A DNA stretch of 38,648 nt, from NCBI GenBank assembly GCA_903917565.1, contig CAIXBB010000012.1:1-38648 (forward strand). Direction: 5' to 3'. The number at the start of each line of letters is the position of its first letter. Position 1 is the first letter of the stretch. Below are positions 17,167-38,648 of the stretch, piece by piece. Origin of the DNA: an uncultured cyanobacterium (GTDB lineage: Bacteria > Cyanobacteriota > Cyanobacteriia > PCC-6307 > Cyanobiaceae). A program made the position numbers and the translations under genes. Under the pieces are notes generated by a model. It made no database searches. It was given only the letters and a program-made list of their open reading frames with translations, and was not told where the DNA came from.

Positions 17167-17181
17167 ATAGGGCTGGGATCA

Positions 17182-17952: not shown

Positions 17953-18172
17953 TTTGTAAAGCTGCCGCTTTTGGTGTCAAGCAAAGGTACACGACATCCC
18001 TAGGGCTGTTTGTATCGCAGGTTGCTTTTCTTCACCATCCTTTCACCCGCCGTCTGCGGACCTGCTTCCCCCGTCCCGTGAACGCTCCCCCAAAGGGAAG
18101 TCAGGGACTGATGTCCGTGGTCTGGGGAGGCAATCCCTGTGGCACTCTCATGGCTGGGCCAGGAATTCTGTG

Positions 18173-20672: not shown

Positions 20673-20685
20673 GGGGCAACGCTAT

Positions 20686-20691
20686 TACAAT
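20686..20691 (+). promoter_or_regulatory. Candidate -10 element for the duplicated-module gene
   Basis: TACAAT, one base off the TATAAT consensus, lies 26 bases before the ATG at 20718 within a 45-base divergent gap. The reverse strand over the same bases reads ATTGTAATAG and could also serve the GT4 gene. No good -35 hexamer is visible. Confidence 0.35.
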
Positions 20692-20717
20692 CCCGCTGCC
20701 TGGACCCCACCTGCGTC

Positions 20718-21857: not shown

Positions 21858-21873
21858 GCGCCCTCGGAGTCCT

Positions 21874-22140
21874 TCACTCGTGGAATTCCTTCCACATCAG
21901 CCAGTAGGTGAGGTAGCCGAGCAGGGGCAGCAGCACCATGGGGGCCAGGGCCAGCAGGGCCACCACCGGCGGCAGGTTGAACAGCAGCCAGAGCAGGATC
22001 AGGCCGTAGGAGAGGAAGGCGACGGCGATGCCCACCGACCGCTGGCCCAGTCGCTCCTTCCAGCGCAGGCGCCAGGCCTTGAAGCGCCGGCGGGGGCGCT
22101 CGTTAGCGGGCACGAAACGCCACCAGTCTTCGTGGGGCAT
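21874..22140 (-). CDS. Small membrane protein, last gene of the type I secretion operon
   Basis: An 88-residue protein: a basic N-terminal part (NERPRRRFKAWRLRWKER), two adjacent hydrophobic helices (about residues 36-56 and 59-80, with the latter LALAPMVLLPLLGYLTYWLM) and the short acidic end WKEFHE. It starts five bases after the HlyD stop, so it belongs to the same transcript. No family recognised. A tight link with the exporter suggests an accessory membrane subunit, but no functional motif shows this. Confidence 0.7.
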   Translation of the reverse strand: MPHEDWWRFVPANERPRRRFKAWRLRWKERLGQRSVGIAVAFLSYGLILLWLLFNLPPVVALLALAPMVLLPLLGYLTYWLMWKEFHE

Positions 22141-22145
22141 GGCGC

Positions 22146-23645: not shown

Positions 23646-26602
23646 CAGCTGAGGCCCTCCTGGTTCTGGCTGCGGTAAAGGGCGTAGTACCAGCCGCGCA
23701 GCTGCATGAGCTGGCGGTGGTTGCCCTGCTCCATCACGGCGCCGCGGTCCATCAGCACAATCAGGTCGGCGGGTTGGACTGTGGAGAGGCGGTGGGTGAT
23801 GAAAAAGACGGTGCGGCCGCGGAAGGCTTCGAACAGGTTGATGCAGACCTGGCGCTCGGTGGTGGCGTCGAGGGCGCTGGTGGCCTCGTCGAGGATGAGC
23901 ATGCGGGGGTTCTGGAGCACGGCGCGGGCCAGGGCGAGGCGCTGGCGCTGGCCGCCGGAGAGGCCGGCGCCCCGTTCGCCGACGCTGGAGTTGTAGCCCT
24001 GGGGCATCTGCATGATGAAATCGTGGGCACAGGCGATGCGGGCGGCGCGGATCATCTCGGCGGCGGTGGCATCGGGCTTCACCATCAGCAGATTCTCGCG
24101 GATGGTGCCATCGAAGAGGAGCGAATCCTGGGGCACCACGCCGATCTGGCGGCGCAGGGAATAGAGCTCCACCTTGCCGATGTCGAGACCATCGATCAGC
24201 ACGCTGCCCCGCTCGGGGGGGTAGAAGCGGGGGAGGAGCTTGAGCAGGGTGGATTTGCCGCTGCCGGAGCCGCCCACCAGGCCGATGAAGCTGCCGGCGG
24301 GGATCTCTAGATCCACCCCATCGAGCACCAGGGGGCCCTGGTCGCGGAAGCGGAAGGCCACGTCCAGGAACTGCACCCGGCCCTGAAGGGGGGGCAGGGG
24401 GATGTTGCTGGCCTGCTCCTGGGTCTGCTCGGTGTCGCGGTCGACCACATCGGCCACCATGCGCAGGGACTGGGTGTTGAACTGGAAGTCCTGCCAGGTG
24501 CTCACCAGCGACACCAGGGGCTGCTGAATGTAGCCGGAGAGGATGCGGAAGGTGAAGAGGGCGCCGATGTTGAACTGGCCCTGGATGATCAGCCAGATGC
24601 CCACGGCGAGCGTCACAAGCTGGCCGAGGTTGCTGAGGAAATTGGAGAGGTTGGCGATCGCTTCGCGGGTCACCTTGAACTTGAAGTCTTCGCCGATGTA
24701 GGCGGCGTAGCGGTTCTGGAATTCCCAGCGGGTCTTGAGTTCGGCGTTCTGGGATTTGATCGTCTGGATGCCGGTGATGGCCTCGTTGAGGAAGCTGGAG
24801 GCCAGCATCGCCTGGCCCATGGTGCGTTTGATCTGGCTGCGCACGAGGGGGTTGCTCACAAGGCCCACGGCGACGATCAGGGGCAGGGTGGCCAGAGTCA
24901 CCAGGGTGAGCAGGGGGCTGAGGGCGAAGAGGATCGCCAGGTAGAGGATGGAGAAGGCGAAGTCGACCAGGGTGGGCATGGTCTTGCCGAGCAGGAAGTC
25001 GCGCAGGCGATCGAGCTGGGAGAAGTAGAAGGTGATCTGGCCCACGGGGCGGGCGTCGAAGAAGCCCTGGGGCAGGCGCACCAGCTGGTCGAGGATGGTG
25101 GCCTTGGCGTCCTGGTCGATGCGGTTGGCCAGGTCGGTGAACAGGAAGCTGCGCAGGGTCTTGAAGATGCTCTCCACAAGGGTGGCGAGCAGCATCACGC
25201 TGGCGATGGCCACCAGGGCGCCGATGTTGCGGCTGGCCAGCACGCTCTGGATCAGCACCAGCAGGCCGAGGGGGAAGACGAGCTTCAGCACGTTGATCAC
25301 CAACGAAGCCACCAGCACCTCGATCAGCTCGCGGCGGTGCTGGCGCAGGAAGGGGCCGTACCAGCCCCAGTCGAAGCGGGCCTGCTTGGCATCGGGTTTG
25401 CGGTCGAAGAGGAGCAGCTCGATCAGGCCGCCCTCGTGGGTGATCAGCTCCTCGGCCGGCACCAGCAGGGCGCCGAGCTCGGCTTCCAGGAGGCGGGCGC
25501 GGCCGTCGGGATCGACGCCGTCGAGCAGGCCGAAGTGGCCGTTCTGGAAGAGCAGGGCGGGGGCGGGCACCCGGGCCAGGCGGCTGGCGGGCACCCGGGT
25601 GAGTACCACCCGCAGGCCGAGGGTGTCCATGATCTGGCCGATGTTGACCAGGTTGAGCCGGTCCTGGCGCTGCAGGATCGCCTCCACCTGTTCGGCGAGG
25701 GCGTCGCGGTTCAGCGGCAGGCCGAAGAAGTCGGCCAGGGCCTGGCAGAGGGCGATGGGCACGGCACGGGCACCGCTGGCGCGGCCCAGGGCCAGCTCTC
25801 CGCTGCGGTCGCCGGCCCGGCGTGGGGGCGGCTCCAGGGCGGGGGCGTAGGCGGTGCCGGCCTCCACCACCTCGGTGAGCACGGCGGGGGTGAGGGGGTC
25901 GGCGCCGAGGGTGATGGTGGCTTCGGCCTCGCGGGGGATGGCCAGGCCCAGCAGGCGCAGCCAGGGGGCCTCGGGGCCGGGGGACACCAGGGGGCGATCG
26001 CTCCAGGGTTCGGCCAGGGGGAGGCCGCTGCTGGCATACCAGCGGAAGCCGGGGGGCAGGCCCAGCTCGGGGGGGGCGCCGGGCCGCAGGCTGCGCAGTC
26101 GCACATGCTCGGGGGGCAGGGGCCAGTCGTCGAGAAGGGCTTCGCCGTGGGGATCCCGCTTGGCCAGGGCGAGCAGCAGGGTGTGGAGTTCGGCGGCGCT
26201 GGGCTGGTTGGCGAACCAGGCGGCGAACTCGGGATGGCCGGCGAGAAGGTCGCGGAAGGCGGCAGCCGGGAGCTGGAGGGCCTCCACCTCGGTGGTGGCG
26301 CGCAGGTGCTCGCAGGGGTCGCGGCGCAGCAGGCCGGCCCAGCCGGCGATGGCACCGGGGCCGAGGCGTTCGATGGTGCGCAGGCCGCGGCCGCTGGGGT
26401 TGGGGCCGAGGCTGCGCAGCTGGCCGCTGCAGACCAGGAGCAGGCCTTCGGGCAGCACGTCCGGGCGGAGGACGGTCTGGCCGGTGGGGAAGCGGAGGGG
26501 CTGCAGCAGGGAATCAATCGCCTCGCGGCGGGCGGCCGGGAGCCGGTCGAAGGGGGTGAAGTCGTTGAGCAGGCCGCTGACGGCCCCGGCGGCGGAGGTC
26601 AT
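23645..26602 (-). CDS. Type I secretion ABC exporter with cNMP-binding-like and C39-like N-terminal domains
   Basis: A 985-residue exporter. Residues about 15-140 look like a cyclic-nucleotide-binding domain (LLLVCSGQLRSLG, ERLGPGAIAGWAGLL). Residues about 278-400 look like a C39 peptidase-type domain (RAVPIALCQALADFFGLP, then NGHFGLLDGVDPDG). Cys286 and His356 are present, but the usual following Asp-Pro is not evident, so cleavage activity is doubtful and a substrate-binding C39-like role is as likely. Six membrane helices follow (about 425-720), then an ATPase domain with Walker A GGSGSGKST, signature LSGGQRQR, and Walker B MLILDEATSALD. It powers export of unfolded proteins. ATG at 26602 overlaps the parvulin stop; HlyD follows with TGATG coupling. 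Confidence 0.92.
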   Translation of the reverse strand: MTSAAGAVSGLLNDFTPFDRLPAARREAIDSLLQPLRFPTGQTVLRPDVLPEGLLLVCSGQLRSLGPNPSGRGLRTIERLGPGAIAGWAGLLRRDPCEHLRATTEVEALQLPAAAFRDLLAGHPEFAAWFANQPSAAELHTLLLALAKRDPHGEALLDDWPLPPEHVRLRSLRPGAPPELGLPPGFRWYASSGLPLAEPWSDRPLVSPGPEAPWLRLLGLAIPREAEATITLGADPLTPAVLTEVVEAGTAYAPALEPPPRRAGDRSGELALGRASGARAVPIALCQALADFFGLPLNRDALAEQVEAILQRQDRLNLVNIGQIMDTLGLRVVLTRVPASRLARVPAPALLFQNGHFGLLDGVDPDGRARLLEAELGALLVPAEELITHEGGLIELLLFDRKPDAKQARFDWGWYGPFLRQHRRELIEVLVASLVINVLKLVFPLGLLVLIQSVLASRNIGALVAIASVMLLATLVESIFKTLRSFLFTDLANRIDQDAKATILDQLVRLPQGFFDARPVGQITFYFSQLDRLRDFLLGKTMPTLVDFAFSILYLAILFALSPLLTLVTLATLPLIVAVGLVSNPLVRSQIKRTMGQAMLASSFLNEAITGIQTIKSQNAELKTRWEFQNRYAAYIGEDFKFKVTREAIANLSNFLSNLGQLVTLAVGIWLIIQGQFNIGALFTFRILSGYIQQPLVSLVSTWQDFQFNTQSLRMVADVVDRDTEQTQEQASNIPLPPLQGRVQFLDVAFRFRDQGPLVLDGVDLEIPAGSFIGLVGGSGSGKSTLLKLLPRFYPPERGSVLIDGLDIGKVELYSLRRQIGVVPQDSLLFDGTIRENLLMVKPDATAAEMIRAARIACAHDFIMQMPQGYNSSVGERGAGLSGGQRQRLALARAVLQNPRMLILDEATSALDATTERQVCINLFEAFRGRTVFFITHRLSTVQPADLIVLMDRGAVMEQGNHRQLMQLRGWYYALYRSQNQEGLS

Positions 26603-27432
26603 GGGGTGGGGTCCTCCTGCAGCAGGGCGAGCATCGCGTCGAGCGGGGGAAGGGGCTGGCCCTCGAGGAGGAGCCGCACCCGCTGCTCCAGCCAGTCGTC
26701 GAACAGTTCGCCCATCATGCGCTCCCTGGTGGCCTCATTCAACTCGGCCGGCAGGAACTGTTCGAGCCTCAGCACCACCCAGCTGTCGCCGGCCTCGAAG
26801 GGTTCGAACAGCTGGCCGGGGCGGCCGCGGCGCAGGCGGCTCACGAGGGTGTCGTGGCCGCTGGCCAGGGAGATCGGGCCGATCTGGCCGCGGCAGAGGC
26901 GCTCGGGGCCGGCGGAATGGAGCGGGGCCAGGCTGTCGAAATCGGCTTCGCCCTCGGCGATCTGGTGGTGGAGTTCGGCGGCGAGGTCTTCGTTGGGCAC
27001 CCGCAGCAGGGAATAGACCACCTGGTCGAGCTCGGGCTTGCGCTGCAGGAAGCGCACCTCCACCTCGTCGGCCCAGCGGCAGCGCACCAGGCGCTGCAGG
27101 CGCTGCTGCTGGGTGGCGAGGATGCGCAGGTCGTCGAAGGCGAGGTGGTGCTCCTGGAGCCAGGCGGGCACCTGGTCGTCGGCGGTGATGCCGCGGCGCT
27201 CGAGGAAGGCGGACATCAGGGCCTTCTCCTGGTTGGCGGGAAGGGGGATGGCGTGCACGAGCTGGTCGAGCACCCAGGCCCGGGCCAGAGGGCCGGCCTG
27301 GCCCTGCTGGCGGATGAGGCGGTTGAGCTCGGAGAGGGCCAGCCAGGGGCGGCCGGGGGGCAGCTCCACCACGGCCGGCTCATAGAGGCCGGAGAGGGGT
27401 TCGGGCAGGGTGTCGCGGGCGGTGGTGGTCAT
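26599..27432 (-). CDS. Parvulin/SurA-like peptidyl-prolyl isomerase linked to the exporter
   Basis: A 277-residue protein from the ATG at 27432 (MTTTARDTLPEP), which lies in a four-base overlap with the upstream stop; the longer frame beginning 26 codons earlier is unlikely. The first 130 residues are helical and SurA-N-like (WLALSELNRLIRQQGQAGPL, ALMSAFLERRGI). Residues about 160-250 resemble a PpiC/parvulin domain: VVYSLLRVPNEDLAAELHHQ, GEADFDSLAPLHS, QIGPISLASGHDTLVSRLRR GRPGQLFEPFEAGDSW (in two parts). No signal peptide is apparent, so the site of action may be cytoplasmic, chaperoning the type I substrate before export. Similar isomerase genes sit beside exporters in other cyanobacteria. 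Confidence 0.78.
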   Translation of the reverse strand: MTTTARDTLPEPLSGLYEPAVVELPPGRPWLALSELNRLIRQQGQAGPLARAWVLDQLVHAIPLPANQEKALMSAFLERRGITADDQVPAWLQEHHLAFDDLRILATQQQRLQRLVRCRWADEVEVRFLQRKPELDQVVYSLLRVPNEDLAAELHHQIAEGEADFDSLAPLHSAGPERLCRGQIGPISLASGHDTLVSRLRRGRPGQLFEPFEAGDSWVVLRLEQFLPAELNEATRERMMGELFDDWLEQRVRLLLEGQPLPPLDAMLALLQEDPTP

Positions 27433-30362
27433 GGGTTGGGCCGCTGGTGGGGCAGTTGAAGGCGGGTGAGGGCGTCGGCCATCAGGGCCAGGCCGCGCTC
27501 GCGGCTCCATGTGGCCCGGGCGTAGGCGAAGGCGGCGGCGCCCATGGCCCGCCAGGCGTCGTCGTCGGCCTCAAGGTGGAGCACGGCGTCGCACCAGTCG
27601 GCGGGGGTGCGGGCGATCAGCACCTCCTGGCCGTGGCGCAGGCCAGTGGCTTCGGCGGCCAGGGGGCTGAGCACCTGGGGGATGCCGTGGGCAGCGGCGG
27701 CCACCACCTTGCCCTTGAGGCCGGCGCCGGAGCGCAGGGGGGCCACAAACAGGCGATGGCGGGCATAGACGCAGGCCGCATCGGCCACCCAGCCCTCGGC
27801 GATCACGCCGGGCTCGGCCCCCCAGCGGGCCGCCAGATCAGGGGCGAGGCCGCTCCCATAGAGGTGCAGACGCAGCTCGGGCCGACGCCGCTGCAGGTCG
27901 GGCCACACCTGGCGCAGGAAGGCCTCCACGGCGTCCCGGTTGGGGGGGTGGCCGTAGCTGCCGAGGAAGGCGAGGCCACTGCGGCCCTCGAGGGGGGCGG
28001 GAGCCTCGGGGCCCTGCACCACCCAGGGGCAGGGGGCGGTGGCGGCCTCGCCGAGGGTTTCGGCCTCGATCACCGCCCGTTCCACTTCTGAATAGCTGAA
28101 GGTGAGATCCACCTGGCGCATCACCGCCAGCTCCTGGCGCTTCACCTCCTCCACGGCCTCCAGGGCGCGGGTGGCGGCTTCGCCCTCAAGGCCCTCGGCC
28201 CGGGCGGCGCGCAGTTGGCGCAGGTGGTGGAGATCGGCGTTGCAGAAGAGCAGGCGGGCCTGGGGGGCGTAGCGCTGGATCAGGGGCAGAGCCTGGGCGG
28301 CCACGGTGTGGCGGGTGAGGTAGATGAGTTTGAACTCGCGGCCCCGCTTGCGCAGGAACTGCTCGAGGGAGAGCACAAAGGGGGCGTGGATGAGCTCGAT
28401 CCCGCGGCGCTGGAGGTCTTCGGTGTAGGTGGCGAGCCAGGCGAGGTTGAGGGGCAGGAGGGTGATCTTCCAGCCCAGGGCAGCGATCAGCTCCATCTCC
28501 ACCAGGGCGGCGTGGCTGCCGGCGTCACGGTCGGGACGGGGGGTTTCATTGTCGAGGAAGAGGGCACGGCCGAGGATGCCCCGGTCTTTGATGGTTTCGG
28601 CCTCGATGAGGCTGGGCTCGGTGCAGCCCTCGAAGGCGTGGGCCCACTTCTGCTGGAACACCGGGCCGTTGATGGCCTGGAAGCGCTTGAGGCCAGTGGC
28701 TGCCGCAGTGTCGGTGCCGCAGCTGACCCCCTCGTGGTGGATCACCCTGGCCAGGGGGGTGTAACGCACGCTGTGGCCGGCCTGGCGCACCTTGAAGGCC
28801 AGGTCGGTGTCTTCGTAGTAAGCGGGGGAGAATTCGGGGCTGAAGCCGCCGATCCGGTTCCAGAGGGCGCGGCGGATGGCGAGGGCGGCTCCGCTGACGT
28901 AATCCACCTGGCGGGCGTAGGCGACACGGGGGTCGTGGGGGTTGCCGCCACGGCAGTAGTTCCAGGGTTCGCCGTTGCCCCAGACGATGCCGCCCGCCTC
29001 CTGCAGGGTGCCATCGGCAAGCAGCAGCTGGGCCCCCACCAGGCCGGTGTCGGCCCAGCGCTCGAAGGGATCGAGCAGCTCCTCCAACCAGGCGGCGCAG
29101 GGTTCGGTGTCGTTGTTGAGCAACACCAGGAACGGGGCGCGGGCGGCAGCGGCGCCGCTGCAGCAGGCCTGGTTGAAGCCGCGGGAGAAGTCGTGGCGGA
29201 TCAGGCGCACGCCGGGGGCCTCGACGGCGAGGGCTTCGGCGGTGCCGTCGGAGGAGCCGTCGTCGACCACCAGGATCTCGAAGGGGATGCGGGTGGGGGC
29301 ATAGGCGATGGCCACCAGGCAGCGCAGGGTGACGGCGACCTGGTTGAGCACCGGGATCACGATCGAGACCACCGGCTCCACCGCTACGGGCAGCTGCAGG
29401 GGCTGGCGCGGCACGGGGCTGCCGTCGGGACCGGGTTCGGTGGCGGCGGCGGGGGCCGGGGTGCCCACGGAGCGGGGCAGGGGCTGCTCGAGCAGGCGCT
29501 GGAGGCGGGGGAGGTCTGGCGGGAGGGGGGTGCCGTGGGCGTCGGCCCAGGCGAGCCAAGTGCGCAGGCTGCGGTAGCGCTCGCGGGCGAGGGGGGAGAG
29601 CTGGTCGGGAAAGGGGGGGCGGGCGTGCTGCTGCAGGGCCGCCCAGGGGGTGAGGTGGAAGGGGAGCAGCTCGAAGCGATGATCCAGCACCAGGCCGGCG
29701 GTGGTTTCCAGCTGCAGATGGTGGATGGCGCCATCGGCTAGGGCGGCGGGGAGGGTCTGCTGGAAGGGCCAGGGCCCCTCGGGAAGGGGCTCGGGGGGAT
29801 CGATCGGCAGGGTGGTGCTGCCATCGAGGCGGAGCACCAGGGGATCGGGGCCGCGGCTCCAGCCCTGCAGGAAGGGGACCTGGACCCCGGTGAGGGCGCC
29901 TTCTTGAGCGGGACCGTGCTGGCGCTGATGGGAGATCTGCCCGTAGGTGTCGGCATCCAGACGCAGGGGGCTGCCGGCCAGCTCGGGGCCGGCCTCACCG
30001 GCAGCGAAGAGGTGCAGCACCAGCCCCTGGGAAAAGGGCGGCAGGGGGTGGGAGGGGCCCCACCAGAAGCGAAAGCCGCAGGGCTGCTCGATGCCCAGGG
30101 GCAGAAGATCAGGCCGGGACTGGGCGGCCATGAGCTCGGCGATGGCCAGGCTCCGGCCGGGATTGAGCAGATCCTCAAGAACCAGGCGAAGGGGCAGGGG
30201 CGGGGCCTGGGGCTGGAGGGGCCAGGGACAGGCCCAGCCGCTGAGGCCGCCGTCCGGGCTCCAGCCCTCCAACTGGCCCACCAGGCCGGGCCGGCGCAGC
30301 TCTGCCAGGGAGATGGGGGATCGCTCCAGGGTGCCTGGCGGCTCGGCGAGCATCTCAGCCAT
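27429..30362 (-). CDS. Large bifunctional GT2 + GT4 glycosyltransferase fusion
   Basis: A 977-residue protein starting MAEMLAEPPGTLERSPISLA. Residues 1-320 are not recognised. Residues about 331-560 form a GT2 domain: VVSIVIPVLNQVAVTLRCLV, EILVVDDGSSDGTAEAL, LVLLNNDTEPCAAWLEELLD, and PAYYEDTDLAFKVRQAGHSV, which has the catalytic-type ED. A middle region (about 600-780) leads to a GT4-like donor domain at about 795-950 with LAFLGSYGHPPNRDAVEAFL, PLRSGAGLKGKVVAAAAHGI and PQVLSP. Two different transferases in one chain probably make sequential linkages on one acceptor. As first gene of the exporter operon, overlapping the parvulin gene by four bases, it may glycosylate the exported protein; that is inferred. 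Low-complexity proline runs lie between domains. Confidence 0.88.
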   Translation of the reverse strand: MAEMLAEPPGTLERSPISLAELRRPGLVGQLEGWSPDGGLSGWACPWPLQPQAPPLPLRLVLEDLLNPGRSLAIAELMAAQSRPDLLPLGIEQPCGFRFWWGPSHPLPPFSQGLVLHLFAAGEAGPELAGSPLRLDADTYGQISHQRQHGPAQEGALTGVQVPFLQGWSRGPDPLVLRLDGSTTLPIDPPEPLPEGPWPFQQTLPAALADGAIHHLQLETTAGLVLDHRFELLPFHLTPWAALQQHARPPFPDQLSPLARERYRSLRTWLAWADAHGTPLPPDLPRLQRLLEQPLPRSVGTPAPAAATEPGPDGSPVPRQPLQLPVAVEPVVSIVIPVLNQVAVTLRCLVAIAYAPTRIPFEILVVDDGSSDGTAEALAVEAPGVRLIRHDFSRGFNQACCSGAAAARAPFLVLLNNDTEPCAAWLEELLDPFERWADTGLVGAQLLLADGTLQEAGGIVWGNGEPWNYCRGGNPHDPRVAYARQVDYVSGAALAIRRALWNRIGGFSPEFSPAYYEDTDLAFKVRQAGHSVRYTPLARVIHHEGVSCGTDTAAATGLKRFQAINGPVFQQKWAHAFEGCTEPSLIEAETIKDRGILGRALFLDNETPRPDRDAGSHAALVEMELIAALGWKITLLPLNLAWLATYTEDLQRRGIELIHAPFVLSLEQFLRKRGREFKLIYLTRHTVAAQALPLIQRYAPQARLLFCNADLHHLRQLRAARAEGLEGEAATRALEAVEEVKRQELAVMRQVDLTFSYSEVERAVIEAETLGEAATAPCPWVVQGPEAPAPLEGRSGLAFLGSYGHPPNRDAVEAFLRQVWPDLQRRRPELRLHLYGSGLAPDLAARWGAEPGVIAEGWVADAACVYARHRLFVAPLRSGAGLKGKVVAAAAHGIPQVLSPLAAEATGLRHGQEVLIARTPADWCDAVLHLEADDDAWRAMGAAAFAYARATWSRERGLALMADALTRLQLPHQRPNP

Positions 30363-30370
30363 GCTGGAAT

Positions 30371-30389
30371 CAATAGCGAAACCCTATTG
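30371..30389. promoter_or_regulatory. Inverted repeat in the divergent promoter of the export operon
   Basis: CAATAG (30371-30376) and CTATTG (30384-30389) form a perfect 6-bp inverted repeat around 7 bases, inside the 54-base gap between the divergent GT2+GT4 operon and the 642-residue gene. This is the only AT-rich patch nearby. The minus strand reads GCTATTGATT here, a possible -10 area, so a regulator bound here could control both directions. Confidence 0.35.
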
Positions 30390-30416
30390 CCCTTTGGCCT
30401 TTTGGTGCGCTCCGCC

Positions 30417-32345
30417 ATGGACACTGCGGGCGGTGAGCCTGCTGTACTGGTTCCGCTTGAGATCCTTCGGCAGCTCCAGCTGCCCTTTGCGGCCTATCAC
30501 CAACTGATCGCGGCGCTCCGGGCAGGGGCTCTGGAGGCCGCCCCGGAGGATGCGCTGCTGGCGGAACTGGCGGAATCCAGCGCCACGGCGCTGCGGGAGG
30601 CGCTCGAGCGGCAGGCGATCGAAGAAGCCCTGGTCGCCCACGACCATCTGCTGGGCCATGTGATCGAGCTGACGGCCGTGCGGCCCGAGGTGGCTCCGCT
30701 TCTGTGGCAGCGCTATGGCGATCTGGTGGGTCAACTGGCGGGTCAGGTGCATGGGCGGGTGGTGCCCACGGCGGGGGAGATGGCAGATTTCAACGAGGCC
30801 GAAAGGGCCGACGACGGGGCGCTCTGCCTGCGGATGGCCAGGATTCTCGAGCAGGGAATGGCGTATCCCTGGGAGGTGCCCCACTGGCTGCCGGTGCTGG
30901 AGGAGCAACTGGTGAAGCACGGGGCCCTGGCCTGGCAGCACCGGATCGGGGCGGATCCGGCCGCCGCCGGGCCCTGCCTGGATCTGTTTCTGAGGCTGGT
31001 GCACTTGCTGGATCCGGTGCCGGCCTGGGTGGAGGTGGCCTGCCGAGGGGCAATGCACAGGGTGATCAAAGGGCTGCCGGCGCCGGCAGCCCTCACGGAG
31101 GACGATCTGGTCCTGCTGATCCAGCGGGTGAGCCGCCTGCCGGTGGCGGTGGAGCAGCGCCAGGCCTTCGAGGCCGCCCTGCTGCGGGCCCGGTTCAGCC
31201 TGGAACTGCTGCAGCAGGGGCGGCCCGCGGCGCCGGGAGGGGAGGTGCTGGAGGCGGAATGGCTGGAGCACGGCGAAGTGCCGGCGTTACGGCTGGTGGC
31301 GACAGTGGCGGAGCCTGAGGACGAGGACGCGCGCTTCTCGCTGGAGCCCTTTCTGGATGGGGACGGGGAGGGGGCGGCGGTGGCACTGGAGGCGTTTGTG
31401 CGGCCCTGGCAGGGGAGTGAGCGGGCGGCCTGCGCGCCGATCGCCAGCCTGCTGGAGAGCCTGGCGTCCCGCGGGTTGCCGCTTTCTGATGGGGCGCTGA
31501 TGGTGCTGCGCCGGGCGGCGGTGCTCTGGCAGGAGCGGCTGGGGGCGCAGATCGCTCCCCTGCCGCCCGTGGACTGGCGGCCGGGCGGGCTGGTGCTGGA
31601 GCTGGATCCGCTGGAGCTGGCGGTGCTGCGCCACGCTGGAGAGGCCGGCGAGGTGCTGGACGAGGCCTTGGCCGAGCTGCGCCGCCGCCATCACGACGCC
31701 GACTTCTGGGGCGCGGCCGCGGCGGATGCTTTTCCGGCGTGGCCGGATGCCCTGGAGTCCCTGCGGCGGTTCGAGGTGGAGGCCGGGTTTTACGCCACCA
31801 CCCACGCGCCGTTGGAAAGCCTGCGGCAGTGGGCCCGGCCGGCCCTGCAGGCCCTGTTGCAGGCCCAGGTTTGGAGCGCCGATCCGGCCACCCAGGGCTT
31901 GTGGCTGCCCTGGGGGCTGGAGGGAGTGGGGAACGACGCTGAGGCCGACAGGCTGCGTCAACCTCCCGCGGGCGCCGGGCTGCTGGCCCTGCTCGAGGGC
32001 GGGGAGGTGGTGGTGGTGGGGGAAGGCACCGAGGCGATCCGACAGGCCCATCAGGCGGGCCGGTTGTTTCACGGCGGCGCCTTCGGCCTGCGCTGCCTGG
32101 AGGCGCCCCAGAGCCGCCATCCCCAGCGGCCCGCGGCAGGATTCGAATACAGCCTGGAGGCGTTGATCACGGCGGTGGAGCAGCTGTACCGGGAGCGGCC
32201 GTTCACGGTGCTGGTGGCGGGCGGCGGGGCCTACCGGCTGCCACTGGCCCAGGCGATGGCCAGCCGCTTCGGGGTGCTGGCGGTGGGGTTGGCCTCTCCC
32301 CTGGCAGGCTGGCTGGAAGGACAGCCTGCGCAGGGACCGCACTGA
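30417..32345 (+). CDS. Unknown 642-residue protein, C-terminal GT-D/Rossmann-like domain
   Basis: Begins MDTAGGEPAVLVPLEILRQL at the first ATG after the divergent gap. It is acidic, Leu/Ala-rich and predominantly helical, without signal peptide or membrane segment. Residues about 380-500 include LVLELDPLELAVLRHAGEAG and a Trp/Phe-rich segment. The last 110 residues (LLALLEGGEVVVVGEGTEAI ... EQLYRERPFTVLVAGGGAYR LPLAQAMASRFG in parts) look like an alpha/beta domain with a strand-glycine loop, reminiscent of GT-D-type domains in cyanobacterial glycosylation proteins. That resemblance is from memory and weak. It shares a promoter region with the exporter operon and overlaps the next gene by one base (TGATG). 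Confidence 0.8.
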   Translation: MDTAGGEPAVLVPLEILRQLQLPFAAYHQLIAALRAGALEAAPEDALLAELAESSATALREALERQAIEEALVAHDHLLGHVIELTAVRPEVAPLLWQRYGDLVGQLAGQVHGRVVPTAGEMADFNEAERADDGALCLRMARILEQGMAYPWEVPHWLPVLEEQLVKHGALAWQHRIGADPAAAGPCLDLFLRLVHLLDPVPAWVEVACRGAMHRVIKGLPAPAALTEDDLVLLIQRVSRLPVAVEQRQAFEAALLRARFSLELLQQGRPAAPGGEVLEAEWLEHGEVPALRLVATVAEPEDEDARFSLEPFLDGDGEGAAVALEAFVRPWQGSERAACAPIASLLESLASRGLPLSDGALMVLRRAAVLWQERLGAQIAPLPPVDWRPGGLVLELDPLELAVLRHAGEAGEVLDEALAELRRRHHDADFWGAAAADAFPAWPDALESLRRFEVEAGFYATTHAPLESLRQWARPALQALLQAQVWSADPATQGLWLPWGLEGVGNDAEADRLRQPPAGAGLLALLEGGEVVVVGEGTEAIRQAHQAGRLFHGGAFGLRCLEAPQSRHPQRPAAGFEYSLEALITAVEQLYRERPFTVLVAGGGAYRLPLAQAMASRFGVLAVGLASPLAGWLEGQPAQGPH

Positions 32346-32653
32346 TGGGGGAACCGGCCGGCAGGGACGCAGAGTGGCAGGCGGTGATCGCGGCCCACCC
32401 GCTCGAGAGCCATGACCCCGCCGAATGGCTGCGCTATGGGGTGGCGCTGACCCAGGTGATCGAGCCTTCGGCCCAGGAGCGGCACCATCAGCAGCAGGCG
32501 GGCCTGGCCTTTGCCCACGCCGAGGTGATGGGTGCCGCGAAGGAGGCCGTGGCCCTGAGCCAGCGGCAAGCGACGCTGCTGAGCCTGGCGCAGGCCCTGG
32601 AGTTGGCCGAGGCCGGATCTGCGGCGGCGGTGCTGCGCCGCAACACCGATTGA
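32345..32653 (+). CDS. Small hypothetical helical protein (102 residues)
   Basis: Starts MGEPAGRDAEWQAVIAAHPL, followed by ESHDPAEWLRYGVALTQVIE and a strongly helical stretch rich in Ala, Gln and Glu (HHQQQAGLAFAHAEVMGAAK, EAVALSQRQATLLSLAQALE). The HPLESHDPAEWLRYG part recalls TPR-like modules attached to cyanobacterial surface-glycan and export proteins. The ATG shares one base with the preceding stop, so it is coupled to the 642-residue gene. The 3' end is only 46 bases from the IS5-like remnant; whether it has been shortened by that insertion cannot be told. Confidence 0.7.
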   Translation: MGEPAGRDAEWQAVIAAHPLESHDPAEWLRYGVALTQVIEPSAQERHHQQQAGLAFAHAEVMGAAKEAVALSQRQATLLSLAQALELAEAGSAAAVLRRNTD

Positions 32654-32698
32654 CCATGGATTGCTGAGAACCAGGGGTTCAGCTCTGTCAGATCTGGC

Positions 32699-33349
32699 TC
32701 AGGTCGAGATGCACCTGAAAGCAACAAAGTGCCTCGTAGCCGTCTGTCCGATGCCGTTGCCATGGCGGATCAGGTTGTAGGCGATCACGTGCAGGCCAAA
32801 CACGGCACTCACGCTGTCCTGACCGCGCGGTTTGAACGGGCGCAGACCGTCGAACGCCTTGATCCAGCCAAACACCTTCTCGATCCCACGGCGGGCATTG
32901 GTCGATTGGGCCTACCCCTTGTGCCGGGTGGTAGGCCCAGCGATCGCTGAGCCACCGCTCGGGCCATGTTCTGCGCCACATGAGGCGTTACGCCCAGCCG
33001 TCGCATCTCGGCCACGAATCCTTTCGTGTCGTTGGCCGGTGTGATGCGGCAGTCAACCACCAGGACCCGATGGTGGGGGCGGTGGATCGTCCTCGCCGTC
33101 CATCCGCTCCAGGGAGGCGTGGGAGGCCCAGGCCTGCAGCAGTGAGGCCAGCAGCAACTGCTCTGGCGGCACTGATGGCCTGCCCACTGAGGCGTAAAGA
33201 TCACAGAAGGTGGGATTAAGCCGATCGAGGGCCTGAGCGGCTAGTTTTCGGATCCGCCGCAGCGGATGGTTCGCAGGGATCCGCTCCTCGATCGAGACAT
33301 ACTCGATCGAGACGTAGGAGAACAGAGAGCCGCTGCGCTCCTGCTGACC
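32699..33349 (-). pseudogene. Decayed IS5-like DDE transposase
   Basis: The reverse strand first reads GQQERSGSLFSYVSIE, then EERIPANHPLRRIRKLAAQA and CDLYASVGRPSVPPEQLLLA, a typical N-terminus of IS5-type transposases. It lacks a start codon. A large internal piece is missing, including the first catalytic-Asp region. It resumes at NDTKGFVAEMRRLGVTPHVA QN, then shifts frame to GGSAIAGPTTRHKG, meets an in-frame TAG, and ends ARRGIEKVFGWIKAFDGL ... GLHVIAYNLIRHGNG to the TGA at 32699. Possible imperfect ends are GCTGAGAACCAGG (near 32663) and the complement of TTTTTCAGC (near 33397), which are not certain. The element is inactive: no start, deletion, frameshift and stop. Confidence 0.8.
33287..33316. 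repeat. 15-bp tandem duplication inside the IS5-like remnant
   Basis: CTCGATCGAGACATA (33287-33301) is followed at once by CTCGATCGAGACGTA (33302-33316), 14 of 15 bases identical. In the transposase frame it duplicates the five residues YVSIE in frame. The CTCGATCGAG unit is itself palindromic, which may favour slippage. Confidence 0.8.
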
Positions 33350-33401
33350 TCAGCATTACAACCAGGGCAGTTGACCCATTTTTGCAGGTTTCACAGGTTT
33401 T

Positions 33402-33506
33402 TCAGCGAACTCCTCATCGTCGCCCGACAGGAGCCGGTACCGTGTCCACGGCTATCAGCGCCAGGAGGCCCAGTGGGACGACTGGTATGTCGGCTCCCAG
33501 GCTTGA
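33402..33506 (+). pseudogene. Possible C-terminal remnant of a gene cut by the IS5-like insertion
   Basis: An open plus-strand frame without start, just right of the transposase remnant, reads SANSSSSPDRSRYRVHGYQR then QEAQWDDWYVGSQA and stops at TGA 33504-33506, one base before the convergent sulfotransferase stop. The Trp/Tyr-rich end looks protein-like and the stop position fits the tight convergent packing elsewhere in the window. The family is not recognised. The frame is short, so chance is a real possibility. Confidence 0.3.
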
Positions 33507-33507
33507 T

Positions 33508-34725
33508 TCACTCAGGCGCTGCTCGGTAGCCCATCCGTTCGCAGAGCCGCCGCAGCTCCCGTGCCGTTGCAGGATCGGCCAGTTCTCTGCGCACCGCCTC
33601 GGGCAGGGTACGCCGAGGAGGCAATTCGATTCGATCGGAGCTTCGGCCGCTGTCCCCACTGAGCTTCACCGAGGGGAATCGCTCCAATGCTGTTGTGTCA
33701 CAGGGAAGGCCAAGGGCATCGCAGAGCTCACGAAACACGGGCTCAGGCTGCCGGCAGAAGTCTTCGTAGTGGATCCAGTCGAGGTCGACGTAGGCATCGA
33801 GGAAGGCCTGGTAGCGAGTGCAGTAGGAGCGCAAAGTGGCCGGCTCCATCTGGGTGTGCCAGCTGGCGGCCATCAGCCCGAGCCAGCTGTCAAGCGGATG
33901 GCGGAGGGTCACCGCCGAGAGCAGGGGATGGCCAGGGGCCAACCACGCTCGAACGGGCTGAAGTGGCGCTACCGCCGCGCCCAGGAAGAAGTCGGAATGG
34001 CTGTGGTCGCGGATCACCAGATCCGATCCACGGGCGCCGCAGAGGGCCAGCACCTGCCCGATCTGGCCGAGGAATTCGGCCTGAAGCACCTCCGGCGGCA
34101 GGGGATCTGTCTGGAGTGCATACAGCGCAAGGGGATGGCTGGGGTTGAAGGCTTCACCGTGCCGGTTTAAGGGGTTCAGCTCGCTGAGCACAACGACATC
34201 CGGCAGGGCGGCCAGGCAGCGGCTGATCAGGGTGCCGCCGCTGCAGGCGGCATGGTGCAGCGTTCGCACCACCTGTGGCTCACTGGGCGGCCAGGCTTGG
34301 CCCACCTGGTGGCGCAATTGTTCGGCGGCCCGGATCTGCCCGTGGCTCCGCAGCAGGAGACACAGCTCCTGCAGCCACTCTTCGCCGCCATGGCGCCTGG
34401 CGAGATCGGTTCCCTGAGGGAACAGATCGGCCATCTCCAAGGGGGACTCTTCGGCTGTGGGCAATTCTTCCAGTTGCGCCAGGGCGGCGCCGCTGCGGCC
34501 AAAGGCCCAGAAGAGCTCGGCGCCGAGCACGGTGAGGGCCGGGTCTGCAGCCGGCGCTGCCGCCACCAGTTGATGCCAGAAGCTGCGGGCCATGGCGGGA
34601 TCACCGCCCAGGGCAAGGCGGCGAACGGTGTCAGGGTCAGGGGCCGCCAATCGTGAGGGGGGCCAGTGGGGAAGTGGCTTTCTGATGTTGGCGCAATCTG
34701 AGCCCGCGGGGGTTGTCAGGGTCAT
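33508..34725 (-). CDS. Sulfotransferase-like protein
   Basis: A 405-residue protein if it starts at the ATG at 34725. Residues about 50-150 are helical and TPR-like. The sulfotransferase-type domain starts VVRTLHHAACSGGTLISRCL, where the CSGGTLIS loop takes the place of the PAPS-binding phosphate loop. It continues with VVVLSELNPLNR, ACGARGSDLVIRDHSH-like strands and TLRHPLDSWLGL, the region that binds the 3'-phosphate in this superfamily, and WIHYEDFCRQPEPVFRELC. It may sulfate surface glycans or a small molecule; the acceptor is unknown. The chosen start lies inside a transposase remnant, so the original N-terminus may be lost; an ATG at 34593 is the alternative. Its codon use matches the host, unlike the next gene. 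Confidence 0.78.
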   Translation of the reverse strand: MTLTTPAGSDCANIRKPLPHWPPSRLAAPDPDTVRRLALGGDPAMARSFWHQLVAAAPAADPALTVLGAELFWAFGRSGAALAQLEELPTAEESPLEMADLFPQGTDLARRHGGEEWLQELCLLLRSHGQIRAAEQLRHQVGQAWPPSEPQVVRTLHHAACSGGTLISRCLAALPDVVVLSELNPLNRHGEAFNPSHPLALYALQTDPLPPEVLQAEFLGQIGQVLALCGARGSDLVIRDHSHSDFFLGAAVAPLQPVRAWLAPGHPLLSAVTLRHPLDSWLGLMAASWHTQMEPATLRSYCTRYQAFLDAYVDLDWIHYEDFCRQPEPVFRELCDALGLPCDTTALERFPSVKLSGDSGRSSDRIELPPRRTLPEAVRRELADPATARELRRLCERMGYRAAPE

Positions 34726-34800
34726 GAGTGCCGCAAAAAGGCACGTGGAAGTCCTTGATTGAAAGCTGACCGTTCTGCTGCCTGCGGTAGAAATGCGGCC
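34700..34800 (-). pseudogene. N-terminal transposase remnant overlapping the sulfotransferase start
   Basis: On the minus strand, in a frame different from the sulfotransferase, positions 34792-34712 read FYRRQQNGQLSIKDFHVPFC then GTHDPDN. This resembles the conserved N-terminus of an IS4/IS5-type transposase (Y-R-R-x-x-x-x-Q-L-S-x-x-D-F-x-x-P-F-G-G-x-L-D-P-x-N-R-W). The initiating Met and everything after this stretch are gone. The remaining part of the 34726-35029 interval shows no convincing gene; it holds several short open frames and a GGGCC/GGCCC inverted repeat near 34955-34970. Confidence 0.5.
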
Positions 34801-35029
34801 ATTGTTCATTGGCAGCAATCAGTGGCAGCAATCTGCGATTGCCGCGTTCCCTGCCAGTTGATCGGCTTCCAGCTGTTGAGACCAGTTGCGGCGTAGGTGA
34901 CTTGGCTTTTTGCAAGAGTCCCCCTTTTCCTCCTGGCCAGAGTTAACGATGACAGGGCCCCAGACTGGCCCATAAAAGGCACCGACCTCACCTGTCCAGC
35001 CTGCAGCAAGGGTCACGGGACTTACAGAG

Positions 35030-36322
35030 TTACACCACACCTGAGCCGCTACCACATCTTTTGTACTCTGCCCAGATATGCGAGAGATTTACAAGGTAGT
35101 CGAGTGAGGCTTCGCACATAATCTTAGGCGATAGACAGTTCTTTAGTCTAATATTGTCGACAGAATCAAGGAACTCCGATAGAGATCCAGCGCCGCGTAC
35201 AGGGCCCAGATTTGACAATGGAGGACGCTGCATAACATCATTATTCAAAAGGTTATGCTTCTCAAGTCTTATCCGAATTCTTTCCGCGGCTGAAAAGAGT
35301 TCGTTTGCATTATAAGTGTAATCGTGCTCAGTCTCAGCCATTGTTAATTCGCATGGCTCCCCTTTGAAAAGCAGGTTTAGCGCATATGGCTCGAATCCAA
35401 GATATGCTCCAAGTTCATCGTGCTCATTTACGTATAAATCAGATAGGCGAGCAATCTGCTCTGAAGATAAAAAGTCGGAAAGCACAGCTTTTGGCCCTGC
35501 CAATGATACATCTGACAGAGCATTAAGGAAATGCATTCTAGTATTTTGTGGCATATTCAATCTTTTGTAAATATCACGGAGCAGACAGAGAAGATTAAGG
35601 GGTGGACTATTATTAGTATTGTTGAATCTTTCCAGAAAAGAACTGATGTTCATTTTATCATCAGTCATTCCAAGCCGATCACAAAAGTCATATAGAATGC
35701 TATTGTTTCTAAACTTAGAGGGATCAAACGGAACGCACATTACATTTGAAGTGCCATACAATGCATCAAAAGTCAAAACATTTCGCATGTTAGGCTGCCC
35801 TTTTAAGAACTGAGGTAAGACTTTGTGATAATCTAAACCCTCCTTGATAATTTGTGTTATCAAAGAAAGGCATTGACTCATAGGATCTCTCATGTAATAA
35901 AGCACCCTAGGTTGATCGCAATAGTAACGTAAATACTCATACTGCTTCTTGGCACGGTCAGGAGTTAATGATGGCCTGCCAGCTTGCTCCGAAGAAAAAA
36001 CATAATGCTTTTCATTCAATTCAGCGAACCCCTTTGAGAGCTTCTGTTTGGTAATAAATCCTTCAAGAGAAATGGTAATGGCTTGGGTATGGTCTTGCTC
36101 AATTCTATGAGTAATTGAGCTAAGATTTGAAGTATTAAAGTCTACAGGTTTTAAGAGTTCAAAATCATCGGCTATCCATTTGAAGTTATTGGCTGCGTAA
36201 TAGCCAAAACATCTTTGAATGCTGTCAGTCCCTGTCTTCGGCCCTCCCGCATGAAGAAGAATACATGACAAGCCGCTTTGCAGTGATGTAGGACGACCCG
36301 ATTCAATTCGAAATGATTTCAT
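35030..36322 (-). CDS. AT-rich sulfotransferase-like protein, probably acquired
   Basis: A 430-residue protein beginning MKSFRIESGRPTSLQSGLSC, then ILLHAGGPKTGTDSIQRCFG, where PKTGTDSIQ matches the PAPS phosphate-binding loop of bacterial sulfotransferases (PKTGTTSIQ type). Another motif is RVLYYMRDPMSQCLSLITQI, the 3'-phosphate-binding R-D-P-x-x-Q/S element. The following 200 residues are helical and not recognised. Base composition is far more AT-rich (roughly 40% GC by eye against about 68% around it), with codons such as AAT, ATA and AGA common, indicating recent horizontal transfer. It lies among insertion-sequence remnants. No Shine-Dalgarno sequence is obvious before the ATG. Acceptor unknown. 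Confidence 0.8.
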   Translation of the reverse strand: MKSFRIESGRPTSLQSGLSCILLHAGGPKTGTDSIQRCFGYYAANNFKWIADDFELLKPVDFNTSNLSSITHRIEQDHTQAITISLEGFITKQKLSKGFAELNEKHYVFSSEQAGRPSLTPDRAKKQYEYLRYYCDQPRVLYYMRDPMSQCLSLITQIIKEGLDYHKVLPQFLKGQPNMRNVLTFDALYGTSNVMCVPFDPSKFRNNSILYDFCDRLGMTDDKMNISSFLERFNNTNNSPPLNLLCLLRDIYKRLNMPQNTRMHFLNALSDVSLAGPKAVLSDFLSSEQIARLSDLYVNEHDELGAYLGFEPYALNLLFKGEPCELTMAETEHDYTYNANELFSAAERIRIRLEKHNLLNNDVMQRPPLSNLGPVRGAGSLSEFLDSVDNIRLKNCLSPKIMCEASLDYLVNLSHIWAEYKRCGSGSGVV

Positions 36323-36430
36323 CTATTTCAAAAATTTAGAAGGAATGAGAGGAGAGGATCATTGTTTAAGCTGTTCTGTGTCAGCGACCACATGCGAAGC
36401 CGGGACCTATCCGGAGATTTGTCCGCTCGG

Positions 36431-36448
36431 AGTGCTGACTTCAGCACT
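36431..36448. repeat. Perfect 8-bp palindromic arms upstream of the AT-rich gene
   Basis: AGTGCTGA (36431-36438) and TCAGCACT (36441-36448) are separated by CT. The site is 109 bases upstream of the ATG at 36322 and 119 bases from the IS3-type transposase stop. It could be an operator, a terminator stem for the transposase remnant without a clear U run, or an old insertion-element end. The rest of 36323-36566 shows nothing convincing. Confidence 0.4.
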
Positions 36449-36566
36449 TGTATTCATTGTACTGCCGATCTAGCTTCATGGGAACCGGGAACCTGGTGTT
36501 TCGCCATCGTTTGGATTGCTTGGCCGGTGGTATTGCGTCAGCCACTGGGGCTTGGATTGTTGAGGG

Positions 36567-38157
36567 TCATGCAGCTACACGTTTCTGCGATCGAGGATCT
36601 TTGATGCTCACAACCTGTGGTTGTAGCCAGTCACGGGGGTGACGGTTCCATTGCTGAGGATGCCTCTGCAGAGCTTTCTCACAGGTCTGCTGGCGGATGG
36701 CGCAGATCCAATCGGCTTCGCCGTAGTGTCGCTGATTGGGACGTCACGTACTTGATACTGCTGTGCTGGTGCTCAGCTTTGCACCAGTCAACAAAACCAT
36801 CCACCCAGCCTTTCACCGAGAGCAGATCCCGGAATCGCCTGAACGGATAACTCTGGTGGTCTTTCATCGTGCGGAACCACGACTCGGCATCGGCGTTGAC
36901 ATTTCTCACTCGCGGCCTGGAGAATGAGAGCAACACCCCCAGCTCCGCCATCTTGGCCGCCAGAGCGAATGAGCGTATGGGAGCACCACAGTCGGAATGC
37001 AAGATCGCAGCGGTCTTCTTGTTGATCCCTTCATCGCGATAGACACGAACAAAGAAATCGCTGGCCAGATCGCTGCATTCATGCTCACATGCCCCTCTGC
37101 ACCGAGGATGCGCCGGCTCAATACATCCATCACCATGTAGAGGTCGAAGAACTGACCCTTCACAGGGCCGGGCAGGAGGGTGATATCCCAGGCCAGCTTG
37201 ATGGATTCCCGTTGCTTCCAACACCGGAACCTCCCTGGGCTCCCGCGGCAGGCGGGTTCTGCCACGGTGGATCAGCAGACCCTCCTACCGCATGATGCGG
37301 TAGATGGTGGACTATGAACCCACATAGATTCCCTCCTCGGCAAGGATGGCCACGATCTGGGAGGGAGTGAGATCCGCGAAACGCGAATTGTTGATGAGCT
37401 CAATCACGTGCTGCTGATCCCCTGCGCTGAAACGGTGCACCACTTTTCGCGGAGAACCCTATCTGCGATCCTGGCTGTAGACGCAGTCTTATCCGAAAGA
37501 GTCACCTTGTGTCTGGAACGCAATGCCCCGCGCCGCAGCCTGCGGGAGCAGATCCCGATCAGATCTGCGATCGCCTTGGCAGAAGCTCCTTCATTGAAAC
37601 CTTCTCGGAACAATTTCATCAGCTGGCTTCTATCCTCTGGCGGGATCAATGTTCCTCGTCGCGTGGCCACAGCTGATTGACCTCTGTTGAGAGCAACCGC
37701 TTCGCGGAAGCGTTCCGCTACAGCAGTGTTGCCGCCTCCAAGAGAGCCTTCTTCTTCTTCTCCAATTCGCGTTGTAAGCGGCGATTCTTGCGAATCAGCT
37801 CCTGATTCTTGCGTTGAAGGTCTCGCTGATCAGCCATGCTCGGAGCGCTGGGGCCATTGGCATCCTCGGCGGCCTGCCGCCAGTGGGCAAGCTGCCTGGG
37901 GTAAAGGCCACGCTCACGGCAGAGGCACCGAGATCAGGGCCAATCAGGCCGGCAGCCTGGATCACAGCGGCCAGTCTGTCGAGAGCACTCCACTGCTCCG
38001 GCGGCTTGGTTGTAACCGGCAAAAGCTGACCCTGTTTCTGCCAGTGGCTGCGCCAGGTGTACGGGGTCTGGACGGTGATCCCGGTCGAGCGGGCGTCAGC
38101 CACGCTTTCCCGGTTTTGCGGGCTCATACGCTAGGCGGTGTCATAGGTCAGTTTCAT
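36567..38157 (-). pseudogene. Decayed IS3-family transposase
   Basis: Reading the minus strand from ATG 38157: MKLTYDTA then an in-frame TAG, RMSPQNRESV and a helix-turn-helix (ARSTGITVQTPYTWRSHWQK), then a frame change to a basic leucine-zipper-like segment (DQRDLQRKNQELIRKNRRLQ). An OrfB-like part follows: LTPSQIVAILAEEGIYVGS, stops, EGLLIHRGRTRLPREPREVP, then the integrase core WDITLLPGPVKGQFFDLYMV MD, AAILHSDCGAPIRSF and NADAESWFRTMKDHQSYPF, and after a last frameshift QRHYGEADWICAIRQQT to TGA at 36567. The D-D-E residues can still be located, but the usual N of HSDNG is C. At least four frame changes or stops make it inactive. Exact terminal repeats were not identified. Confidence 0.82.
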
Positions 38158-38221
38158 GGTCGTCGGCTTGGGCCCCTGGTGTGATGCGTCGGACCGAGCG
38201 GACTTCTTTCCTGAACCCGGG

Positions 38222-38514
38222 GGCCTACAGCGTGGGCATCGTCACTTCTCGCAGGATTGAGCGTGCCTGTTGCGAGGATCTGGCCTTCCGGGTGCTGACC
38301 GGCAAACAGCAGCCCGACCAAAGCCGCAACTGATTCGCAGAAGCCCTAAGGCTGCAGCGAGTTCCTCCGCCGCAACCTCGACGCGCTGAGCGACCGGTTT
38401 GTTCAGATCCTGCGGCTGTGTCAGAAGGCGGGGATGGTGAGCTTGGGCCATTTTGCGCTGGATGGCACCAAGGTTCAGGCCAATGCCAGCAAACACAAGG
38501 CCATGAGCCACTAG
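38222..38514 (+). pseudogene. IS1182-like transposase fragment
   Basis: Plus-strand reading gives AYSVGIVTSRRIERACCEDL AFRVLTGKQQPD, in-frame stops, then SEFLRRNLDALSDRFVQILR and SLGHFALDGTKVQANASKHK AMSH followed by TAG. This is the conserved N-terminal to central region of IS1182-family transposases, with the catalytic Asp of ALDGTK present. The beginning is missing next to the IS3-type remnant, and the part after the stop is missing. It is inactive. The spacing between the two segments suggests a small insertion. End coordinates are approximate. Confidence 0.75.
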
Positions 38515-38614
38515 GAGCGTGTCGCACATAGATCCGCGCAGGACCTCTCCACAGACGCCTGTCAATCCGCCCAGATCCCTGTGACTGCAATGGTTCTGAG
38601 CTAGAGAATGGGGC

Positions 38615-38648
38615 ATGGTCAAGCCCAAGTCCTTCCGCCCCTGGAACC
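38615..38648 (+). CDS. Start of a transposase-like gene, cut by window edge
   Basis: ATG at 38615 begins MVKPKSFRPWN and runs off the window. The K-x-F-R-P-W-x-P-x-Q type start is characteristic of IS1182-family transposases, so a second element of the same family as the fragment at 38222 may start here. Only 11 residues are visible. The 100 bases before it show no gene. Confidence 0.5.
   Translation, partial: MVKPKSFRPWN

Follow-up and report, generated by a model that had tools for sequence, protein, structure and literature searches.

A probably acquired, AT-rich gene for a divergent sulfotransferase-like protein at a variable glycan-gene site of a cyanobacterium

Sulfotransferases of described systems and the protein of this locus

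Sulfated surface glycans are a notable trait of cyanobacteria. A described example is the synechan (xss) cluster of Synechocystis 6803, in which the exopolysaccharide sulfotransferases XssA and XssE are encoded together with Wzx/Wzy, a co-polymerase and glycosyltransferases (PMC8205485). The same work reports a survey in which cyanobacterial sulfotransferases were counted using the Pfam models PF00685, PF03567 and PF13469 (PMC8205485). Our search for literature on sulfotransferases in genomic islands of picocyanobacteria yielded nothing. At the level of sequence, a KTG[ST]xxIQ loop combined with an R-x7-S motif constitutes a sulfotransferase pattern.

The gene described here is located in a window of 38,648 nucleotides that makes up contig 12 in full, one of the 46 contigs of a 3.02-Mb draft genome from an uncultured member of the Cyanobiaceae. 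Nine matches to phycobilisome proteins mark the genome as cyanobacterial; of 14 control genomes, Synechococcus elongatus alone gave such matches. It is an AT-rich gene on the minus strand (35030..36322) encoding a divergent sulfotransferase-like protein of 430 amino acids, as judged from its open frame and from a profile match to the sulfotransferase 3rnl. We consider it probable that this is a transferred gene for a PAPS-dependent glycan sulfotransferase, residing at a variable surface-glycan site. As to the parts of this reading, both the kinship with sulfotransferases and the foreign origin are well supported, and the encoded enzyme very likely sulfates a cell-surface sugar chain, an activity and a substrate that we infer. 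The protein belongs, as a distant member, to an enzyme group that is already known, and the standard family libraries miss it.

Like the PAPS-dependent sulfotransferases of PF13469, the protein has a KTGTxxIQ-type loop, an S-x-E motif and an R-x7-S motif, but it matches no Pfam sulfotransferase model at E ≤ 1. This includes the three models of the published count (PMC8205485), and the escape from these models is the one point at which the gene reaches beyond its strain. XssA and XssE can be likened to it by description only, as cyanobacterial sulfotransferases of an exopolysaccharide cluster (PMC8205485). Its best match, both by sequence profile and by Foldseek, is 3rnl from Alicyclobacillus acidocaldarius, although the identity in the structural match is about 14%. 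The heparan sulfate N- and 3-O-sulfotransferases (NDST1 and 3-OST-1/3/5) take the highest VIA-align Z values with both low-confidence models of the protein; these are, however, animal enzymes with 9–14% identity, and their rows are partly tied with those of 3rnl and of kinases.

The open reading frame and its base composition

A frame of 430 codons with an ATG start occupies exactly 35030–36322 of the minus strand. The gene that an earlier note on this DNA had placed here, leaving the strand unstated, thus exists and is read from the minus strand; a plus-strand reading was rejected because it is interrupted by 30 stops. When the segment was shuffled 2000 times with a first-order Markov model, the longest open run did not exceed 193 codons, versus the 430 observed. 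The gene is present as a single copy in the genome.

The sharp drop in base composition over about 1.3 kb, remarked upon in the earlier note, was confirmed. The gene has a GC content of 41%, with 0.47, 0.37 and 0.38 at the three codon positions. Measured in 500-base windows, GC is 0.37–0.46 across 35001–36500, while the remainder of the contig shows 0.57–0.78 up to 34.7 kb and 0.51–0.62 to the right of the gene. In 1-kb windows the median of the contig is 0.70 and the minimum, 0.389 at 35201, falls within the gene; the lowest value among windows starting outside 33400–37400 is 0.564. A milder dip, to about 0.57–0.64, is seen at 17001–18250, around a frame of 256 amino acids that has no Pfam match at E ≤ 0.001.

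Codon use deviates as well. Four genes of the window with a Pfam match, i.e., the glycosyltransferase genes at 27429–30362 and 19476–20672, an ABC gene at 23645–26602 and an HlyD gene at 22146–23645, have a third-position GC of 0.89–0.94, versus 0.38 in the AT-rich gene. Four other frames, with third-position GC of 0.55–0.81, have no Pfam support and were not counted as host genes; three of them were nevertheless taken into the codon reference, and relative to this window reference the codon use of the AT-rich gene is foreign. The four genes with a Pfam match belong to a minus-strand region (19476–30362) that encodes a glycosyltransferase, HlyD, an ABC transporter with a cyclic-nucleotide-binding domain and a protein with a weak match to PPIC-type rotamases, and that looks like a locus for protein export and glycosylation.

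Assignment to the sulfotransferases

Apart from its motifs, the protein had been called unlike common families, and database searches agree with this. When it is searched alone, Pfam offers no match with an E below 0.27, and the curated cut-off of PF13469 (Sulfotransfer_3) is not reached; NCBIfam returned nothing at E ≤ 1, PHROG nothing below E 0.29, and the PDB chance-level matches only. A relationship becomes visible with profile A1, which combines the protein with 10 distant relatives. Searched against the PDB, this profile matches 3rnl with a whole-sequence E of 7.1e-7, where the best single stretch has an E of 1e-4 and the loop part contributes only 5.1 bits. Profile A4, in which the window protein is combined with five other relatives, does not find 3rnl; its sulfotransferase matches, with E values of 0.54 and 0.61, rank after a different match at E 0.031. 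Among the 11 members of A1, Pfam recognizes Sulfotransfer_3 in two, Sulfotransfer_4 in two and Sulfotransfer_1 in one (E ≤ 0.1). A further link is provided by the relative at L068:8943–10016, of which residues 10–192 match positions 5–191 of the 216 in PF13469 with an E of 2.6e-4, below the cut-off.

Several of the conserved positions fit a predicted PAPS site. In 25 of 25 aligned sequences H24, G26, K29, Q36, S110, E112 and R145 are invariant, and Y143 (24/25), N237 (24/25) and S153 (22/25) are nearly so. Both motifs that the earlier note had singled out are present, PKTGTDSIQ at residues 28–36 and MRDP at residues 144–147. The former is part of the predicted 5′-phosphosulfate-binding loop, residues 24–36 (HAGGPKTGTDSIQ; 36215..36253, minus strand), which contains four of the invariant residues. 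The latter is part of YMRDPMSQCLS, residues 143–153 (35864..35896, minus strand), the predicted 3′-phosphate-binding R-x7-S motif. Phosphate binding in the PAPS site we assign to two elements, the lysine of the loop (K29) and the R-x7-S motif (R145 and S153). Between them lies the S-x-E motif at residues 110–112 (35987..35995, minus strand), whose E112 is, by its conservation, a candidate catalytic base. The C-terminal stretch, residues 358–430 (35033..35251, minus strand), lacks a clear counterpart in most relatives when alignment A1 is judged by eye.

Predicted structures were obtained for the whole protein (mean pLDDT 48.9) and for residues 16–325 (mean pLDDT 50.3). In a Foldseek search with such a low-confidence model, 3rnl takes the top rank with an E of 3.4e-4 and TM-scores of 0.27/0.41; next comes a GTPase at E 1e-3. 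With VIA-align, the whole model has NDST1 as its first match (Z 9.4, rmsd 5.1, 223 residues aligned) and an adenylate kinase as its sixth (Z 8.1). With the 310-residue model, sulfotransferases fill each of the first 14 rows, and 13 of these enzymes act on glycosaminoglycans, with Z values from 9.9 to 8.2, an rmsd of 4.1–5.5 and 173–210 aligned residues. NDST1 leads again (rmsd 4.6, 201 aligned), and adenylate kinases appear from Z 7.7. Because the rows are partly tied, the values of 8.1 and 7.7 for adenylate kinases being level with those of the weaker sulfotransferase rows, the modelled fold is consistent with a sulfotransferase and is not a proof of one.

These ties bear on the question whether the protein could be another P-loop protein, for instance an enzyme of kinase type whose nucleotide site is similar. 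Against the low-confidence models, Z values of 6.4–8.1 are reached by adenylate and guanylate kinases, and the protein itself has no Pfam match. On the other hand, the PDB search with profile A1 brings up a sulfotransferase, and its matches at E ≤ 1 include no kinase, the Pfam matches of the relatives are mainly to sulfotransferase families, and the KTG[ST]xxIQ loop and R-x7-S motif fit the sulfotransferase pattern. We therefore regard a P-loop protein of another kind as very improbable. The identity as a sulfotransferase, proposed earlier from the two motifs, is supported by the profile and the conserved motifs, and the fold comparison is consistent with it.

The site in congeners and the neighboring sulfotransferase gene

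The locus is anchored by a conserved block (30200..32658, plus strand), which ends near 32658 and is common to 13 of 41 other congener genomes; 15 more share short pieces only, mostly of a repeated 45-base stretch. For each of the 13 congeners, the DNA beyond the block was used as a flank; two of the flanks end within 2 kb and the other 11 are 12.5–14.5 kb long. Beyond the block, no DNA is shared with the 13 flanks at E ≤ 1e-5, save for three short pieces of the neighboring sulfotransferase gene in one congener (G395). The window gene was not found among 113 chosen open frames of the 13 flanks by either BLASTP (best E 0.76) or phmmer, and tblastn of the protein against the same flanks gave nothing at E ≤ 1. 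All 11 long flanks therefore lack the gene at this position, so that the pattern that would count against a foreign origin, similarly composed orthologues at the locus throughout the close relatives, was not seen.

What the congeners have instead is other DNA, often AT-rich. GC drops under 50% over a 1-kb stretch in nine of the 11 long flanks, and under 45% in six, as measured at this place only. From five long flanks, ten AT-rich frames were chosen for a Pfam search. Five of them score above the cut-off, as two pyruvyl transferases, a GT2 and a GT47 glycosyltransferase, and a rhamnosyl transferase; two have weak matches (AlgX-like and GDSL lipase) and three have none. Judging from these other, AT-rich and partly glycan-modifying genes in the congener flanks, the site seems to hold glycan genes that vary between strains, and a low GC content is frequent there instead of being confined to the strain of the window. 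This lends indirect support to the suggestion of the earlier note that surface structures are under exchange. Taken together, composition, codon use and absence from the site in congeners support a foreign origin, and the gene was probably acquired from elsewhere.

Directly downstream and in the same orientation lies a second, GC-rich sulfotransferase gene (33508..34818, minus strand), which scores 27.1 bits with PF13469 (Sulfotransfer_3) against a cut-off of 27. The proximity of another sulfotransferase gene had been noted, and this part stands; its description as host-like needs qualifying. Its third-position GC is 0.745. Matches to the second half of its protein occur in four of 41 other congeners (E ≤ 1e-6), and in one of them (G389) the match, at 46% identity, adjoins the same conserved block, with its orientation to the block reversed. 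In G395 (L065), the three pieces of 55–92 bases are 84–85% identical to the gene and clustered beyond the same block, with a tblastn E of 3e-13 over residues 101–221, as if they were a shortened remnant of it. As it occurs in only four of 41 congeners, with a remnant in a fifth, the gene is accessory in the genus. The two neighboring sulfotransferases have no significant BLASTP match to each other (best E 0.14 in a set of two), and by sequence a tandem duplication was therefore rejected. Apart from the gene at 33508–34818, no known glycan genes were found from 32.7 kb to the contig end, where the frames were scanned in part.

Distant relatives and their surroundings

The collections searched contain no close relative of the protein, the best match being 28% identical over about half of its length; a pattern scan with the gene in genome contigs and viral contigs gave no close relative either. 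Distant relatives are found patchily. They occur in three of 41 other congener genomes (E ≤ 0.01; 23–26% identity), in ten of 399 other genomes of the family (E ≤ 0.001; the 28% match being the best of them) and in three of 385 other genomes sampled throughout the phylum (E ≤ 0.001). Among plasmids, six records match at E ≤ 1: two of Acuticoccus and one of Rhodobacter have values below 1e-4, and the remaining three, of Paracoccus, range from 1e-3 to 2e-2. A scan of genome contigs with alignment A3 added five distant loci, in Poseidonocella, Hydrocarboniphaga, an uncultured cyanobacterium (two genes) and Promicromonospora. All these matches are relatives and not orthologues. The search in other cyanobacteria and in heterotrophs, proposed earlier, gave these distant members. 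The check for an occurrence in cyanophages revealed no link. The best match in 50,697 phage records has an E of 0.3, in Caulobacter phages, and viral contigs gave no match with alignment A3 or with two relatives as queries, scans that reach near relatives only. Within this reach, a phage origin of the gene found no support.

In a tree of these sequences, Rhodobacter plasmid genes and a gene of genome G526 are joined at 99/99, and Hydrocarboniphaga and cyanobacterial genes at 98/98, groupings that speak for transfer between phyla. The window gene itself occupies the longest end branch (3.19) and belongs to no supported set. A donor could not be read from the tree, as no starred set contains the gene. 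The phylogeny and composition analysis proposed earlier therefore gave foreign composition and codon use on the one hand, and an unplaced gene on the other.

Neighborhoods were annotated or scanned for seven relatives, four on plasmids (out of the six records) and three in the loci L067–L069, and all seven contain glycan genes. In G526, four frames with the family loop, two from the relative search and two recognized by their sequence, lie in both orientations within one AT-rich island of about 6 kb (L068 5776–11821). Their GC is 0.42–0.46, and the group is flanked by a glycosyltransferase gene and an NAD-dependent epimerase gene, by our reading a GDP-fucose synthase gene. Three of the four frames were scanned with Pfam; two have no match at E ≤ 0.01 and one matches below the cut-off. 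In G564 a member with a GC of 0.41 comes after genes for a GDP-mannose dehydratase and a glycosyltransferase, and in G574 a member with a GC of 0.49 adjoins an RgpF/GT2 gene, near a weak match to an ABC-2 transporter. The family is not uniformly AT-rich, as illustrated by the member of G409 with a GC of 0.64. The member of G422 sits in surroundings of 0.69 GC, among genes that look like housekeeping ones when judged from their sequence starts.

The distant members in three of 41 congeners could be taken to mean that the window gene is native to the lineage and has drifted to a low GC content, with no transfer involved. Those members are, however, only 23–26% identical to it, the one of G409 is far from AT-rich, the codon use is foreign and the site is empty of the gene in every long flank, so that we give a native origin next to no credence. 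A broader view, in which the gene would represent a large, poorly recognized family of glycan sulfotransferases whose members travel between cyanobacteria and alphaproteobacteria in single cassettes, many of them AT-rich, and in which Pfam-based surveys have consequently undercounted surface-glycan sulfation in small cyanobacteria, is put forward tentatively and is itself rather doubtful. If the gene and these relatives truly encode glycan sulfotransferases, the capacity for sulfation in small cyanobacteria would be wider and more mobile than such Pfam-based counts (PMC8205485) show.

Possible function, arrival and insertion-sequence remnants

On the preferred reading of a transferred glycan sulfotransferase, the gene would encode a cytosolic, PAPS-dependent enzyme that moves a sulfuryl group onto a sugar of an exported surface glycan. 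PAPS as donor, E112 as base, a glycan as acceptor and present activity are the presumed elements of this scheme. An APS kinase gene is present in the genome, so PAPS can be made. The gene probably arrived horizontally, from a source of lower GC or by way of an AT-rich gene pool common to such glycan islands, and would have been inserted into the variable glycan-gene site beside the conserved block. Insertion sequences possibly helped in this gain.

Remnants of insertion sequences had been reported near the gene, and on its right side they were confirmed. A broken IS3-family transposase gene in two frames (36679..37265, minus strand) matches NF033516 with E values of 1.7e-15 (36679–37224) and 0.0052 (36906–37265), both far below the curated cut-off. 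It is followed by an IS1182-type fragment that runs into the contig end (38181..38648, plus strand) and matches NF033551 with an E of 1.4e-4 (38181–38333), again far below the cut-off.

Given these surroundings, it may be asked whether the gene is a decaying passenger, i.e., a sulfotransferase gene that came in by transfer and retains its open frame but has gone out of use and is stranded among the remnants. The broken transposase pieces lie upstream of it, and it is the only AT-rich gene in the window. Moreover, the NH motif at residues 63–64, conserved in 20 of 25 aligned sequences, has T64 in place of the histidine in the window protein, and GC climbs across the stop from 43 to 51–61% in 100-base windows, so that the end of the gene may be new. 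All 430 codons are open, however, and the key lysine, the S-x-E motif, the arginine and the serine are all intact, which makes decay an unlikely explanation. A transferred gene whose product still acts on a surface glycan thus remains the reading we prefer.

Two other arrangements were considered and are unsupported: no matching pair of insertion sequences brackets the gene in the manner of a composite transposon, the nearby repeats being short and imperfect, and no tRNA is present in the window that could anchor an island. As for the contig end, its last 138–141 bases (38508–38648) recur with 100% identity at five other places, all of them contig ends, and the IS1182-type element therefore probably breaks the assembly. 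To the left of both sulfotransferase genes, a putative transposase-like remnant (32688..33204, minus strand) was assigned by reading only, with no NCBIfam match at E ≤ 0.1. The 45-base stretch at 32756–32800 has copies of 89–97% identity at many places in the congeners, seven of them in G268, and is probably part of a widespread transposase gene.
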